NCBI GenBank assembly: GCA_001563905.1
Contig: LKMO01000005.1
Location: 1-41,532, forward strand
DNA: 41,532 nt
Source: Nanohaloarchaea archaeon B1-Br10_U2g19
GTDB taxonomy: Archaea > Nanohalarchaeota > Nanosalinia > Nanosalinales > Nanosalinaceae
Direction: 5' to 3'
The notes under the pieces are model-generated. The model was not told the DNA's origin, made no database searches, and saw nothing but the letters and a program-made list of their open reading frames with translations. Of the stretch, positions 9,318 through 36,240 are shown piece by piece; position 1 is the first letter of the stretch, and the number at the start of each line of letters is the position of its first letter. The position numbers and the translations under genes are program-made.

Positions 9318-11267
9318 TTAAGAGTTGTTTTTCAGAAGTGCGGAAGGGAAACGGGTTACGCATGTCTCATACTCTCCTCCTTCTCCTGCAGCGTTGAATC
9401 CGTACTTCTCTGAAAGCTTTATGAGGTCTTCAACCGACTCTTCATCAAGAATTTTATCTTCCCAGGCCTCATCTAGACCTCTGGCTGCAACAGAAGTTAT
9501 CTTGATCTCGAAACCTTCTCTTATAAGCCAGCGCATATAGTTTTGCTGATTTTCTTGCCACAGAGGCGAGAAAACTTTCAAACCTGTTTTTTCCGCTATT
9601 TTTTCAACTCTGTCTCTCTGGTAAGTTGAGGCTAGTGCACCTGCTACAACTCCTTCAACACCGTACTGTTGTTTAGCTTTGTTGAACGCTTTTTCTAGAT
9701 CTTCAAGCTCTTTCTCTTTCTCGCCTTCAGTTTTCTGAACTAGTAGAGGAATACCTAGTTTTTCTGACTGCTGCTCTAGCATATTCATTTCCTTTTTGGA
9801 GTCGAACATGTAGCTGTCTTTGTTTTCTGATCTTAGAGTTACTAGACACGAGATCTCGTTATTTCTTCTACTCATCCGGTAAAGTGCTGCGTTCGAGTCT
9901 TTCCCACCCGAGGTTAGTGCCGCAAGCTTCTTGTTAGGCTTGTCTCTTAAAGAGTTCAAATACTCTTGTTTATGGTTAAATCCTTTCTCACGCGACAACT
10001 TATCTATAGCTTTGTCGAAGTTACTTCCATACTGTGCAGCTGTTTTTTTACGCCAAACTACCTCTTCCGGCACACCTAATTTCTCGGCAGCCAGACGTAG
10101 AACGTATTTCCGGTAATCTTCTTTCACTTTGTATTCTTCCGGTATTGTGAGCGCATGTTCAATAAGCTCTTTATCTAGAAACGGTGTTCTCAGTTCGTAA
10201 CCGTTTCTGAAGGAGATTACATTATCTCTGTAGAGATCTCTGTGGAATATTGAGCGTAGACCAGACAGACATTCTTTGTTGAGGTAGCCTTGTTGTCTTG
10301 AGTAGCCTGCATAGAGCTGTTCGCTTCCTAAGCCACTCATAACCACTTTTTCATTACCTGTAAGAGCTATATGGAACGGAAGTGCTACACCGTTCTTAAC
10401 GACGGATGTTGATGAAATCCAGTCTGTGATCTTAGGTAGTTCTGTTTCAACATCGTTTAGAGATGCTTTGTTTACTTTTAGTTCTAAATCCATTTTTTCT
10501 GCTATCTTTTCAGCCCATTCAACGTCTCGTGGAGCGTTTACATTTCCATACTGTATTCCCGAGGTGTAACATGTGAATTCCTCTCCCAGCTCTTTCAGTG
10601 CTGCCGCTATAAGTGTTGAGTCGACTCCTCCCGAGAATAGAAGCGCTATTTTTTTGTCAGGCACTCTCTTTTCTACTGCTTCAAGAAATTTTTCTTTAAT
10701 TTTTTCTGCTGTCTCATCAAGCTCTTCTTTTTTTACGTTTATTTTGAAGAACTCTCTGTTCTCAAAAGATAGAGTGTCCTCTTCTAGATCGTACCTTAGT
10801 ATCTGTCTAGGATGTAGTTCTCTGGAGTCTAAACCTGCTTTTTCTAATGCTTGTTTCTCTGAAGCAAATGCGAATGGGTCTTCGGAGTACCAGATAGGGT
10901 TGACTCCTAGACAATCTCTTGCAAGAATAAGTTCTCCTTCTTTAAGATATGCAAATGCGTATATACCATCCAGTTCTTCTAGAATTTTGATTCCTTTATC
11001 TTCTAAAAGTTTGAAGAGTAGTTCTGCATCATTTTCGGCTTCTATATCATGTTTGTGGGAAAGTTCTTCCCAGTTGTATATCTCGCAGTTAGCAGCCAGT
11101 GTTCCTTCTCCACTGAGAGGCTGTTTGACCTCTCCTACAACCGAGTGTAGTACATGACCTACGCTGAAACTACCTAGTTTTATTCTGGAAGAGCTTCCTC
11201 GGTGTTCAAGTGACTCAGTAAGTTTCTCAATAATTTCCGGGTTTCTAGCTCCTGCTATACCACACAT
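9318..11267 (-). CDS. Class II glutamine amidotransferase/asparagine synthase-like protein fused to diphthine-ammonia ligase (Dph6) domain
   Basis: 649 aa; N-terminal MCGIAGA (Cys2 nucleophile), NCEIYNWEEL; middle PP-loop LLFSGGVDSTLIAAAL, SGLGSEQLYAGYSRQ, RKKTAAQYGSNF; C-terminal second PP-loop AALTSGGKDSNAALY and GEGGEYETCVTRFP typical of Dph6. Confidence 0.88.
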   Translation of the reverse strand: MCGIAGARNPEIIEKLTESLEHRGSSSRIKLGSFSVGHVLHSVVGEVKQPLSGEGTLAANCEIYNWEELSHKHDIEAENDAELLFKLLEDKGIKILEELDGIYAFAYLKEGELILARDCLGVNPIWYSEDPFAFASEKQALEKAGLDSRELHPRQILRYDLEEDTLSFENREFFKINVKKEELDETAEKIKEKFLEAVEKRVPDKKIALLFSGGVDSTLIAAALKELGEEFTCYTSGIQYGNVNAPRDVEWAEKIAEKMDLELKVNKASLNDVETELPKITDWISSTSVVKNGVALPFHIALTGNEKVVMSGLGSEQLYAGYSRQQGYLNKECLSGLRSIFHRDLYRDNVISFRNGYELRTPFLDKELIEHALTIPEEYKVKEDYRKYVLRLAAEKLGVPEEVVWRKKTAAQYGSNFDKAIDKLSREKGFNHKQEYLNSLRDKPNKKLAALTSGGKDSNAALYRMSRRNNEISCLVTLRSENKDSYMFDSKKEMNMLEQQSEKLGIPLLVQKTEGEKEKELEDLEKAFNKAKQQYGVEGVVAGALASTYQRDRVEKIAEKTGLKVFSPLWQENQQNYMRWLIREGFEIKITSVAARGLDEAWEDKILDEESVEDLIKLSEKYGFNAAGEGGEYETCVTRFPSALLKNNS

Positions 11268-12484: not shown

Positions 12485-13150
12485 ATGAGCTATAATGTCA
12501 AAAACCTTCCTAAAAGCGAACAGCCAAACGAAAAACTAAAGAAAAATGGCGTATCAAGCCTTACAGATGTCGAGCTTCTTTCACTAGTTTTAAGATCCGG
12601 AATTCCCGGAAAAAATGTTAAAGAACTATCCTCAGACATACTAACTACATACTCTCTATGCAATCTTTCAGAACGCTCTATGAGAGACTTGAAACAGTTT
12701 GAAGGAGTTTCAAATGCTAAAGCCGGACAGCTAAAAGCATTAGGAGAGCTAGGGCGTCGAATGAAAGTTGAGAAGAAGGAGAATATCTCGGCGCTTTCAG
12801 ACGTGAAGAAAAGAGTTCAAGATATGAAGTTTATGAGAACTGAGAAAATAAGAACACTCTTTCTTTCATCAGGCAACAAGCTTCTAAAAGAAGAGGAGTA
12901 TGAAGGAGAAGTTAGTTCCGCAAGCTTTAGTGCCAGAAAACTGTTCAGATCAGCTTTAAACGAGAAAGCTGCCGCATTAATAATTGTCCACAACCATCCT
13001 TCAGGCGATCCAAACCCTTCAGAAAGCGATATCGAGGTAACCGAAGAGCTGAAGCTTATAGGCGACAATCTAGGAGTCCAAGTTCTCGACCATATTATTG
13101 TTGGCGAGAGAATAATAAGTATGAGAGAGAAGAAACTTGTCAGGTTCTAA
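12485..13150 (+). CDS. radC: RadC family JAB/MPN protein
   Basis: 221 aa; N-terminal HhH (LTDVELLSLVLRSGIPGKNV), FEGVSNAKAGQLKALGELGRR, C-terminal ALIIVHNHPSGDPNPSESD metalloprotease-like motif. Confidence 0.92.
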   Translation: MSYNVKNLPKSEQPNEKLKKNGVSSLTDVELLSLVLRSGIPGKNVKELSSDILTTYSLCNLSERSMRDLKQFEGVSNAKAGQLKALGELGRRMKVEKKENISALSDVKKRVQDMKFMRTEKIRTLFLSSGNKLLKEEEYEGEVSSASFSARKLFRSALNEKAAALIIVHNHPSGDPNPSESDIEVTEELKLIGDNLGVQVLDHIIVGERIISMREKKLVRF

Positions 13151-23332: not shown

Positions 23333-25516
<2,184 letters not shown>

Positions 25517-31524: not shown

Positions 31525-34500
31525 GTGACCAGAAAATATCTTTCCAGAACACTGTTAGCTGGTTTAATAGTTTTATTAGCTGTTACGGGCAGCTCTACCT
31601 TTTCTAACATCTCTGGAGACATACCTCAACAAGATCCTTCCCAAGTAGATATAGATCCTAATATAGAATCAAAATTCCAGTCAAACATTTTTACAGCCCA
31701 GAGTAAAGACAGAACAGAAGTATTAGTCAGTCTCGAATCCTATCCCCGAAACGTTTCAACAGTTGAAGAGATGGAAAAACACGCTTCAGAAAGCCAAAAA
31801 CCTCTAAAAAAACTGGCTGATAAAAACCCTGAAGTCACTGTCAAAAACAAGTTCTGGATTACTAACGCAGTACTTCTCGAAATCAACCAGGATTTTCCTT
31901 TAGAGAATATTGCAGGAGTAAAAGGCGTAACCCGTCTGAACGAAAACTCTGAATTCACCCTACAAGAATCCGACACTTTTTCAGAAACATCTAACGTAAA
32001 CACACAAAGCTCTGAAAACACGTACGGTCTTAACCAAATAAACGCGACAGAGACCTGGGAAGAGTTTGATACTAGAGGAGAAAACATCAGAATCTCTGTA
32101 ATAGATACAGGTATAGATATCGATCACAACGACCTAGAACTGTACACAGATGATGAAGACGATCCTACCTACCCCGGTGGCTGGGCAGAGTTCAAGAGCG
32201 GCGAAGTTGAGGACTCAGAACCTCGTTACTGCGACTACGACGGCGGAGATCACGGAACACATGTAAGCGGTACCGTAGCCGGAGGAAATGAGTCAGGAAC
32301 AAACATAGGTGTAGCACCAAACACAGAGCTGATGAACGTTGGCGCCTTAATGATTAATAGTACGGAAACCGGCGAATGTGTAGGAGAGCTACAAGACATT
32401 TTAGACGCTATGGAGTGGTCTGTCGACAATGACGCAGATATCATAAGTAAAAGTCTAGGAGCTGACGGATATGAAGAAAGCTATATTGACGCAATCCAAA
32501 ACGCGGAAACCGCCGGAACAGCAGTGATAGCTGCATCCGGAAACAGCGGGGAAGATACTAGCATCTCTCCGGGCAACATATTTGACGCCATAAGCGTCGG
32601 AGCCACGAATGAAGACAAAGACGTAACTGAATTTTCAGGAGGAGAAGAGATAGATACCGACGAAATATGGGGAGACGATGCTCCCGATGACTGGCCAGAA
32701 CAGTACGTCGTACCCTCTTTAGTTGCTCCTGGAAGCAACGTGGAAAGCGCATTACCCGGGAACAATTACGGATTAAAATCAGGGACTAGCATGGCGACGC
32801 CTCATGTATCAGGAGCTGCTGGACTTATACAGTCTGCTACAGAAACAGCTCTTGAACCGGATCAGTTAAATGAGGCTTTAGAAGAGACAGCATGGAAACC
32901 TGAAGACAGTTGTGACGATGAAGAGATAGATGGTAGAGATATAAGATGCGGTCAAGGTATATTAGATACTTACGAAGCCACATACTACTCTATTACACGT
33001 TTCGATGAAGGCTTTGAGGTACGAGACGTATCTCTAAACGTCTCAGAGATCAATATTACTGAAGAATTCAAGGTTGAAGGATCGGTTGAAAATTTTGAGG
33101 ACGAAACCCAGACTATAGATCTTGAATTTAAGCTGAACGACACTCTAAACAGTACTGAAGAAGTCGAGGTAGATGCGGGGACAGAGAAACAGTTCAGTTT
33201 TGAGACAGTTATAGAGGAAGAAGGATTCTACAAAGCTTCTTTAAACCGTGCTGAAGCCGGCAGTATTGAAGCCGTTATGCCGCCTCCAGAGTTCATTATA
33301 GATGAGGAAGAGCTCGAACTCAACGAGTCAGAGATTTCTCAAGGAGACAAAGTAAACACTTCAGGAGTCCTAACAAACGAAGGCGGTGACGGAGTCGCAG
33401 ACCTCAGACTTTTCGCTAACGAAACTGAAAAACAGGGTAAGGAACTTGAACTAGGTTTTGAAGAAGAGAAGCCTTTCAGCTTCACACAACAGTTTGAAGA
33501 TCCTGGGTTCTATGAGGTCAGTGTCAACGATACGTTTGCAGGAAACCTCGATGTACTTGAGGCTGCAAGACTATCCGTCAATAATATAGAGCTGGTTAAC
33601 AAGTCAGAGGAGCTGAACGAGTCTCAGATACTTGAAGGCGAGTATATTGAATCTGAAATCGAAGCTGAGAACATAGGCGAGGAAGACGGAGAGTTCGACA
33701 TCAATCTTTCTGTCAACGGGGAAAAAGTACAGAACAAATCAACAGCTATCGAATCAGGTGAAACCGAGCTAATCACATTTACAGAACAGTTTGATAGCAG
33801 AGGAGAGTACAATATCTCTTCAGAAGACAAGTTTGAGATACTCGAAGTGCTTAGAGAAGGAAACGCCAACCTAGAAAACACTAGTTTATCAGAGCAGAGT
33901 ATCGTTGAAGGTGAGACCGCAGAACTAACAGCCTCAACAAACAATACAGGAGACTTGAATAAAGAAGACCTGCTTAATTTCAGTGTAGACGGAGAAAAGA
34001 TAGAAAAAAGAAATATTGTTGTAGGAAACCGTTCGACTAAAGAAACTGTTTTTGAACAAAGTTTTGACGAACCAGGAACCTATAATCTATCTGTAAACGG
34101 AACTGAAAACACTTTAGAAGTTTTAAAGCAGGCCGAACTAGTTCAAGAAGATTTCAAAGTTGTTAACCAGACTGTTGAAGGAAACGAAATAGAGTTCAGT
34201 AGCCTCATAGAGAACATTGGAGAGGTTGAAGGCGAGTTCAACGTGAATTTGAACGTGACGGACACTACAGAAGACAAAGTAGTAGATACGGAGAAAGATA
34301 TAGTCTTAGGCCCTGAAGAGAACGAAACCGTTGTTTTCACTGAAACTATAGATGAGCCTGGAAACTATACTGCAAACTCGTTAAACAAGTCAAAACATTT
34401 CGAAGTCCTAGAAGGACCTAACTTAGAGTTAAAAGACGGTTCCGTAAACGAGACCGAGATATTCGTAGACGAGACCCTGGAAGTTACTGCGTCGATAGAG

Positions 34501-36240
34501 AACACCGGAAGTATTGAAGGAACAGATCTCTTCGAGTTCTCTGCAGAAGAGATTTTTGAATCTAAAAGCTTAGAGCTGGAACCGGATGAAAAGAAAGACT
34601 TATCTAAAACTACCTCGTTCAGCGAAGAAGGCGAGTACACATTGAACGTGAACGATACAGAGATTGACACTGTTACTGTTGAAGAACCTGATACAGAGAT
34701 AAACCAGGTTTCAGAAGCTGTCTCAGACAAAGGAGTAATCGATGTAGAGGTCGAATTAAACAATCCGAACCGTGTGTCTTCTACCAAAGAATTAGAGCTA
34801 GAAATAAACGACTCCATAGTGGAGGAAGATAGTTTCAAGGTAGAGCCTGAATCCAGTAAAAATATTTCTCTACAACACAACATAAACGAGACCGGTCTGA
34901 AAGAGCTTTATCTGAACTCAGAGAAACTTACAGAGTTCAGTCTTGATCCGGATATAGCTTTCTCAGATCTAAGTCCCGATAACCAAGTTTTTGAGGAAGA
35001 AGAGCCTGTCAGCTTCTCAGCAACCGTAGATGTTATTGGTGAAGGCGAACTAGTTTTAGAGCTTGACGGCTCCGAAGAGATAACAGCTGACTTGGAGTCA
35101 GGTCGGAACGATTTTGGACATACAGATATCTTTTCTGAGGGAATCTATGACTGGAGTCTTGTCGGAGATATTGAAGGCGAAAGCTTTAGCTCAGAAATCA
35201 AAGGTTTTGATGTTGAAGCTGTAGAAGAAGAGGAAGGCGGCGGAGCTCCTGTAGAAGAGGATGAGGAAGAGTCTGAAGAAGAAACTGTGTTGGAAGAAGA
35301 TAACGACAGCATATCCGTAACAGGAATAAACGAAGGACAAAAAATCAGGTTCAACCAGACAGATCTACCTATAGAAAGTATAGAGTTTGAGTCAGCAGAA
35401 AACGATAGTATAGAGATTGAAAGTACCAATGTAGACACTTCATCCTCCATGGAAGAGTTCTTTGAGGCAGAGACAACTTTAACTGAGGAACTGACTCTGG
35501 AGTTCAGTATAACAAATGACTGGCTGGAGGAAAACAATTTTGAGCCGGAGGAAGCTTCTCTATACAGACAGGGAGGGGAAGAATGGTCTGATCTCGGTGC
35601 AGAGCTGGTAGAGGAAGAAGATACTGTTTCAGTTTACAGCGTTACAGTCGATGGTTTCTCTGTATTCGCAACCGGCATAGACCAGACATGTTACTCCGAA
35701 CAGAGCGTTGATGCTGCAGACGAAAACACTTGTTCAACCTTTGATAATGTATGCGAGGTTCCTGATGAGAAAGAAGAGGTGAACAGCTGCGGAGAGTGGG
35801 AGGCTGAACAGGAAACCCGTGAAAGAATCAGAGATATAGAGACAGAGTCTGACAAGGCAGGTGAAAAACTTGTTGAGGCTGAAGAGAAGCTGGAAGAAGG
35901 AAACTTGCAAGAGGCTTCAGAACTTGCAGACGAAGCTGAAGAAGCAGCGGAAACACCAGGTTACACAGACCTAATACGGAATGTTTTCCTAGGTATCTTG
36001 GCCTTGTCAGTTCTAGCTATTCTAACTTACTACATTAAGTCCTACCGAGATAAACAGTCCATAGTCGATGAGCTGCTTGAACTTGAGAAACAGACAGAAA
36101 AGAAGTACAATAACGGCTACGAAGTCTCAGACTGTATAGAGCTTCTTGAAGAGGCTGACAAAGCAGTAAACAACCAAGACTATGAAAAGGCTTCAGAGCT
36201 CTCTGAAACGGTTAGAAACCGGCTAGAGAGAATGGAGTAG
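31525..36240 (+). CDS. Giant subtilisin-like (S8) surface protease with tandem CARDB-like repeats, PGF-pre-PGF-like domain and C-terminal TM/cytoplasmic tail
   Basis: 1571 aa; signal peptide, I9-like prodomain, catalytic ISVIDTGIDIDHNDL / GDHGTHVSGTVAG / GTSMATPHVSGAAGL, about 8 beta repeats (NVSEI..G..V.....N.G......L.VNG......), FSVFATGI module end, TM LIRNVFLGILALSVLAILTYYI. Confidence 0.88.
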   Translation: MTRKYLSRTLLAGLIVLLAVTGSSTFSNISGDIPQQDPSQVDIDPNIESKFQSNIFTAQSKDRTEVLVSLESYPRNVSTVEEMEKHASESQKPLKKLADKNPEVTVKNKFWITNAVLLEINQDFPLENIAGVKGVTRLNENSEFTLQESDTFSETSNVNTQSSENTYGLNQINATETWEEFDTRGENIRISVIDTGIDIDHNDLELYTDDEDDPTYPGGWAEFKSGEVEDSEPRYCDYDGGDHGTHVSGTVAGGNESGTNIGVAPNTELMNVGALMINSTETGECVGELQDILDAMEWSVDNDADIISKSLGADGYEESYIDAIQNAETAGTAVIAASGNSGEDTSISPGNIFDAISVGATNEDKDVTEFSGGEEIDTDEIWGDDAPDDWPEQYVVPSLVAPGSNVESALPGNNYGLKSGTSMATPHVSGAAGLIQSATETALEPDQLNEALEETAWKPEDSCDDEEIDGRDIRCGQGILDTYEATYYSITRFDEGFEVRDVSLNVSEINITEEFKVEGSVENFEDETQTIDLEFKLNDTLNSTEEVEVDAGTEKQFSFETVIEEEGFYKASLNRAEAGSIEAVMPPPEFIIDEEELELNESEISQGDKVNTSGVLTNEGGDGVADLRLFANETEKQGKELELGFEEEKPFSFTQQFEDPGFYEVSVNDTFAGNLDVLEAARLSVNNIELVNKSEELNESQILEGEYIESEIEAENIGEEDGEFDINLSVNGEKVQNKSTAIESGETELITFTEQFDSRGEYNISSEDKFEILEVLREGNANLENTSLSEQSIVEGETAELTASTNNTGDLNKEDLLNFSVDGEKIEKRNIVVGNRSTKETVFEQSFDEPGTYNLSVNGTENTLEVLKQAELVQEDFKVVNQTVEGNEIEFSSLIENIGEVEGEFNVNLNVTDTTEDKVVDTEKDIVLGPEENETVVFTETIDEPGNYTANSLNKSKHFEVLEGPNLELKDGSVNETEIFVDETLEVTASIENTGSIEGTDLFEFSAEEIFESKSLELEPDEKKDLSKTTSFSEEGEYTLNVNDTEIDTVTVEEPDTEINQVSEAVSDKGVIDVEVELNNPNRVSSTKELELEINDSIVEEDSFKVEPESSKNISLQHNINETGLKELYLNSEKLTEFSLDPDIAFSDLSPDNQVFEEEEPVSFSATVDVIGEGELVLELDGSEEITADLESGRNDFGHTDIFSEGIYDWSLVGDIEGESFSSEIKGFDVEAVEEEEGGGAPVEEDEEESEEETVLEEDNDSISVTGINEGQKIRFNQTDLPIESIEFESAENDSIEIESTNVDTSSSMEEFFEAETTLTEELTLEFSITNDWLEENNFEPEEASLYRQGGEEWSDLGAELVEEEDTVSVYSVTVDGFSVFATGIDQTCYSEQSVDAADENTCSTFDNVCEVPDEKEEVNSCGEWEAEQETRERIRDIETESDKAGEKLVEAEEKLEEGNLQEASELADEAEEAAETPGYTDLIRNVFLGILALSVLAILTYYIKSYRDKQSIVDELLELEKQTEKKYNNGYEVSDCIELLEEADKAVNNQDYEKASELSETVRNRLERME

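Follow-up and report, generated by a model that had tools for sequence, protein, structure and literature searches.

Why an archaeal Dph6 should be joined in one chain to both a glutaminase and a second ATPase is the question raised by a locus of Nanohaloarchaea archaeon B1-Br10_U2g19. The window that we analyzed is a stretch of 41,532 nucleotides (contig LKMO01000005.1) taken from an assembly of 663 kb that is 79.5% complete. Within it, a single uninterrupted ORF of 649 amino acids on the minus strand (11267..9318, ATG at 11267, stop at 9318) encodes, in this order, a class II glutamine amidotransferase (GATase), an AsnB-like PP-loop ATPase, and Dph6. A first-pass annotation had described this triple-domain ORF, and we find the ORF as described, its three domains by Pfam and NCBIfam, and every motif quoted for it. 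Neither the fusion nor the idea of glutamine-derived ammonia is new, because both were published in 2012: passages of de Crecy-Lagard et al. (PMC3541065) report GAT-II + Asn_Synthase_B_C + DUF71 proteins in Methanohalophilus mahii, Methanosalsum zhilinae, and Ca. Nanosalinarum J07AB56, and propose the GAT-II domain as the supplier of NH3. Among the reviewer comments carried by the same source, L. Aravind asked which PP-loop uses the NH3 and what the Asn-synthetase-like domain catalyzes, and our literature search found no paper that takes the middle-domain question beyond that point.

Table 1. Features of the window discussed in the text, with coordinates on the 41,532-nucleotide stretch.
Feature	Coordinates	Strand	Remarks
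Class II (Ntn) glutamine amidotransferase domain	10758..11267	(-)	residues ~1-170; nucleophile Cys2; N60/E62/D80 kept; R48 -> L40 (H41 next), G75 -> C61 (human ASNS numbering; residue roles PMC6748925)
Middle AsnB/ASNS-like PP-loop ATPase domain	9933..10721	(-)	residues ~183-445; SGGVDS, D344, R347, K408, AAQYGS kept; asparagine synthetase catalytic Glu -> L313 (E364 role PMC6748925)
Dph6 (diphthine-ammonia ligase, DUF71/PF01902) domain	9321..9932	(-)	residues 446-649; ends ~30 residues short of standalone Dph6
aEF-2, diphthamide loop LHEDAIHRGPAQ	23333..25516	(+)	predicted substrate

Pfam places GATase_7 at residues 48-142 (E 9e-18) and Diphthami_syn_2 at 447-638 (E 4e-57), with a match to Asn_synthase (E 8e-37). 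The AlphaFold2 model of the fusion has a mean pLDDT of 92 and a pTM of 0.90. In Foldseek searches, the first ~440 residues match asparagine and beta-lactam synthetases, and the remainder matches the archaeal Dph6 proteins PF0828/PH1257 (TM-score on target ~0.81 and rmsd ~1.4-1.6 Å for the best chains). Elsewhere in the window, positions 12485-13150 of this archaeal genome encode a RadC-like (UPF0758/JAB) protein adjoining the gene for endonuclease NucS, and positions 31525-36240 encode a very large protein (1571 aa) that by eye has a subtilisin-like protease at its start, numerous domain repeats after it, and a membrane segment at its C terminus.

The fusion is the product of neither chance nor misassembly, because its nanohaloarchaeal relatives mostly match as a single frame and 78 of 80 related loci carry Dph6. 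Most of these relatives give one match across ~600-650 query residues; in three further relatives a single open frame holds the parts, and L017 contains a frameshift. The 80 loci come from a scan of public genomes with the GATase and middle part as query; all are from DPANN archaea (the scan kept DPANN loci only), and they represent Nanohaloarchaea, Woesearchaeota/Nanoarchaeota, and Diapherotrites. Dph6 lies in the same frame in 77 of them; the remaining Dph6 locus, L037, has a frameshift and represents the gene already seen as L017. Of the 28 genomes in the window's phylum, 22 give a match; families f1 and f5 have the fused form, and in f2 and f3 Dph6 stands alone. For the phylum of genome G030 (Woesearchaeota), the 149 Dph6 frames listed from a 279-genome sample comprise 46 of full-length-fusion size (593-793 aa), 11 of 430-532 aa, and 92 standalone frames (<350 aa), and the Diapherotrites sample contains frames of ~690-790 aa that include the middle domain. 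A search of plasmids for other hosts of the GATase and middle part gave low-identity matches only (24-28% among the best), several of them annotated as asparagine synthase.

The assignment of the C-terminal domain to Dph6 is borne out by NCBIfam TIGR03679 (Dph6_archaeal), against which the fusion protein scores 237.3 bits, above the cut-off of 197.3. Its PP-loop, SGGKDS, is present, and the residues given as EF-2-facing for PF0828 in the 2012 passages (S44, Y45, E78, Y103, Q104, E183, E186, and E188; PMC3541065) are all kept, as S485, Y486, E520, Y549, Q550, E629, E632, and E634. The fused nanohaloarchaeal form (window positions 9318-9932 and relatives) is missing the last ~30 residues of standalone and woesearchaeal Dph6. 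As annotated, EF-2 in the window keeps the diphthamide histidine, in the loop LHEDAIHRG. When the fusion was surveyed against the rest of the pathway, a Dph2 match was found in the window's own genome; a Dph5 search of that 79.5% complete assembly gave no match, and Dph5 is present in a sister genome of the same genus (G010, 96% complete).

Across the window's phylum, Dph6 tracks Dph2 and Dph5. Dph2 is found in 22 and Dph5 in 21 of the 28 genomes, and all three proteins occur in nearly all of family f1 and are present or partly recovered in f2, f3, and f5 genomes. In the five genomes of family f4 that we searched (G003-G007), Dph2, Dph5, and Dph6 are all absent, and the EF-2 loop (L134-L138) reads IHEDHVHRG or IHEDPAHRG in place of LHEDAIHRG, altered beside the retained histidine. 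This one nanohaloarchaeal family has probably lost diphthamide, and the joint absence of the three proteins together with the changed loop is what one would expect of a fusion that serves diphthamide. In the genome set that includes the GATase-less forms described below, Dph2 itself is often found as two pieces on different contigs (model positions ~1-58 and ~62-290, for example in G132, G155, G141, and G167), an arrangement that looks widespread; a split Dph2 has already been reported in the nanoarchaeon Nst1 (PMC3655853).

The explanation proposed in 2012, and taken up in the first-pass annotation, is a simple relay in which the GATase delivers ammonia to Dph6 and the middle domain, derived from an AsnB-type ancestor, serves as a carrier or structural passage. 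Besides this published proposal (PMC3541065), the relay has in its favor the preservation of several glutaminase residues: of the 63 full-length forms in which the residue is readable, 61 have the Cys2 nucleophile (MCGI), and N60, E62, and D80 are retained in nearly all full-length forms. In human ASNS, R48, N74, G75, E76, and D96 are glutamine-binding/oxyanion residues (PMC6748925), of which the fusion keeps the N, E, and D positions; the replacement of R48 and G75 counts against the relay. The interface also speaks for it: the middle-domain residues E358 (human E414), R360, and Y346, which align to the glutaminase side, stay conserved where the GATase is present and drift where it is missing, and human E414 lies within 5 Å of the glutaminase pocket (PMC6748925).

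Further support comes from a separate fusion in genome G028, in which Dph6 carries a C-terminal class I GATase (L148:871-2190:-; PF00117, 51 bits, cut-off 22.8; GICAGMEL and GVQFHPEV), the one case seen; in that genome, a class II GATase + middle protein (L104) is encoded apart from Dph6. Yeast Dph6 has C-terminal YjgF/RidA domains, on which its function depends (PMC3585130). Counting the class II GATase, possible ammonia modules of three unrelated kinds are joined to Dph6, which supports the importance of ammonia supply, with the class I fusion represented by its single case.

The relay nevertheless accounts insufficiently for the middle domain, which outlasts the GATase in several lineages with its ATP site intact and also exists as a GATase-free standalone protein, and we regard it as an unlikely explanation of the fusion. 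In family f5, the nucleophile is lost in L015 (MGGI; G009) and in L018 (MSGI with a shortened GATase; G008), and the middle domain and Dph6 are intact. Nine ORFs from the G030 phylum contain the middle domain and Dph6 with no GATase; in eight of them, ~600-800 bases upstream are free of a GATase, and the ninth, L163, begins at a contig end. In a tree built on the middle domain and Dph6, the missing GATase of these nine rows requires four changes, of which three are clean. Each of the nine genomes has a Dph2 match (in G263 the short piece only). By these sequences, the glutaminase is a part that is optional and was lost on several occasions.

A trans-acting GATase was considered and rejected. 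Whole-genome searches of the GATase-less genomes found no family-type GATase elsewhere; G155 and G141 gave no match at all, and in the others, the best matches reach ≤105 bits versus 201-208 for true members, being ~570-640-aa AsnB/GlmS-type frames and other weak matches. One locus in G068 (L194), separate from the middle + Dph6 gene, encodes a degraded 289-aa protein related to the GATase + middle part, with neither the starting Cys nor a PP-loop. The Dph6 frames of ~430-540 aa were also considered as class I GATase fusions like L148, a reading that we rejected since they read as middle domain + Dph6 without a GATase; the exceptions are L158, a frameshift, and L162 and L163, which are contig-end cases.

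What persists through these losses is the ATP site of the middle domain, where SGGxDS, D344, R347, D348, K408, Q412, Y413, and G414 are identical in 66 of 66 full-length and nine of nine GATase-less forms. We interpret this as a middle domain that would keep an ATP-dependent job once the glutaminase is gone, and the pattern suggests that the steady partner of Dph6 is the middle ATPase, not the ammonia-releasing part. When the middle domain was used as a query by itself, genomes with standalone Dph6 yielded standalone copies of it, either ~270-300 aa long or as GATase + middle proteins that lack Dph6. Among the matches listed, L206-L209 are middle + dph6 tandems in fusion order, L200 and L210 are divergent pairs, and in L211 the two genes are ~1 kb apart. 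Separate middle/Dph6 pairs within 1.5 kb number at least 7 of 48, compared with ~0.14 expected under a simple uniform model of randomly placed genes; this adjacency could stem partly from gene fission or fusion history. We use adjacency and not co-occurrence as the argument because the latter is not significant: of 92 genomes with standalone Dph6, 48 have a separate middle domain, and of 17 genomes that lack Dph6, 5 have one (p = 0.11, counted irrespective of assembly completeness). No middle domain was found in two nanohaloarchaea with standalone Dph6 (G001 and G002), so the domain is not always needed.

Taken together, our reading, to which we assign a probability of roughly 0.6, is that the fusion is a diphthine-ammonia ligase whose conserved unit would be two PP-loop ATPases, with the glutaminase optional. 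The Dph6 domain, by the function of its family, would use ATP to adenylate the diphthine carboxylate on EF-2 and then amidate it with ammonia. The middle domain would be a second ATP-binding domain of amidoligase type and Dph6's conserved partner, whether as fused domain, operon neighbor, or separate protein; we infer that it takes a direct part in the amidation rather than in a neighboring reaction. Where present, the class II GATase would probably pass glutamine-derived ammonia across the GATase/PP-loop interface, and this supply would make the enzyme less dependent on free ammonium. Counted against the two-ATPase reading is a GATase without the usual glutamine-binding Arg. As for the glutamine-dependent diphthamide synthetase put forward in the first-pass annotation, its domains and its link to diphthamide hold up; beyond lacking novelty, the proposal is incomplete, given the altered R48 and G75 positions, the repeated GATase loss, and the missing nucleophile in two nanohaloarchaea.

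The substrate pocket of the middle domain bears on what else it might do. Human ASNS E364 is essential, both E364A and E364Q being inactive (PMC6748925). Among the 66 full-length forms, 63 have Leu at the corresponding position and 65 have Glu at that of D367; in the GATase-less forms, E364 is replaced by Leu, Thr, or Met. Because of these two changes, the middle domain is unlikely to make asparagine. Nearly all full-length forms retain the ASNS residues S362, D400, R403, and K466. A pocket that differs from that of asparagine synthetase and still keeps D344/R347, with PP-loop, Arg, and Lys fully conserved, would suit a bifunctional enzyme whose middle domain amidates some other substrate (another residue, a tRNA, or a metabolite) and draws on the same ammonia source as Dph6. 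We think this quite improbable, since every case read has Dph6 as the partner in the fusion or operon, and the five diphthamide-less f4 genomes, few as these are, have no middle domain. It is very improbable, despite the overall AsnB/ASNS fold and the Asn_synthase Pfam match, that the genome has its asparagine synthetase in the first two domains and that their fusion is incidental, in view of the replaced E364 and D367, a TIGR01536 asparagine synthase score of 226.3 bits (below the cut-off of 267.1), the GATase-less forms, the repeated linkage to Dph6, and the separate, ordinary AsnB-like protein (L028) of the f5 genome G008.

Under the two-ATPase reading, a middle domain that survives loss of the glutaminase and also adjoins dph6 as its own gene points to a second ATPase in diphthamide amidation, and the pattern offers a testable role for human ASNSD1. 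ASNSD1 is a poorly characterized eukaryotic protein with a GATase and a PP-loop domain, and mammalian DPH6 is without the RidA domains of the yeast protein. The middle domain had been annotated as apparently closer to ASNSD1 than to AsnB. Our human ASNSD1 query was an unverified sequence, and because of this, the likeness is a lead and not a test. The C-terminal half of this query matches the DPANN family at 43-76 bits versus 36-42 bits for ASNS, AsnB, and L028, and in a tree built on a short alignment of 127 columns, the ASNSD1 query joins the DPANN family with branch support of 80/90. The whole-profile scores favor AsnB (195 bits, versus 116 for the ASNSD1 query), probably because of the large ASNSD1 insertion. 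Kinship with the DPANN family is suggested by the C-terminal half and not by the whole profile. Our literature search found no paper naming both ASNSD1 and diphthamide. A broader proposal, in which Dph6 would generally have the middle PP-loop family as a second, ATP-dependent partner in diphthamide amidation, with the glutaminase an add-on and ASNSD1 the eukaryotic counterpart working with DPH6, is offered as a tentative and rather doubtful extension.

Compared with known systems, the fusion is closest to that of 2012, with the same three domains in the same order in one ORF, and the Ca. Nanosalinarum gene is among our loci (L044/L016). The passages of that report (PMC3541065) place it in a few archaea, whereas here it spans three DPANN groups and includes GATase-less, split, and standalone forms; as far as the papers searched show, what is new here is how broadly the family is distributed, that the GATase was lost repeatedly while the middle ATP site was retained, and that the middle domain also occurs as a separate gene neighboring dph6. 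Standalone archaeal Dph6 (PF0828 and PH1257; PDB 3rk1 and 2d13) shares ~40-48% identity in structure alignment and the signature residues; it is a single domain, and the nanohaloarchaeal fused form lacks its C-terminal ~30 residues. AsnB and human ASNS (PDB 1ct9 and 6gq3) share the fold of residues 1-~440, the PP-loop, the Cys nucleophile, and the D400/R403/K466 positions, but the fusion differs in E364 -> L, D367 -> E, R48 -> L, and G75 -> C and in its attached Dph6. ASNSD1, by the unverified query sequence, resembles the fusion in combining a GATase with a PP-loop domain, in HVLH within the GATase, and in G[IL]G[AS][DE][EQ]..AGYxRH and Q[FY]GS, and differs in its large insertion and in having no DPH6 fusion. 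Yeast Dph6 with its YjgF/RidA domains (PMC3585130) likewise joins Dph6 to a possible ammonia-generating module, although the partner domains are unrelated.
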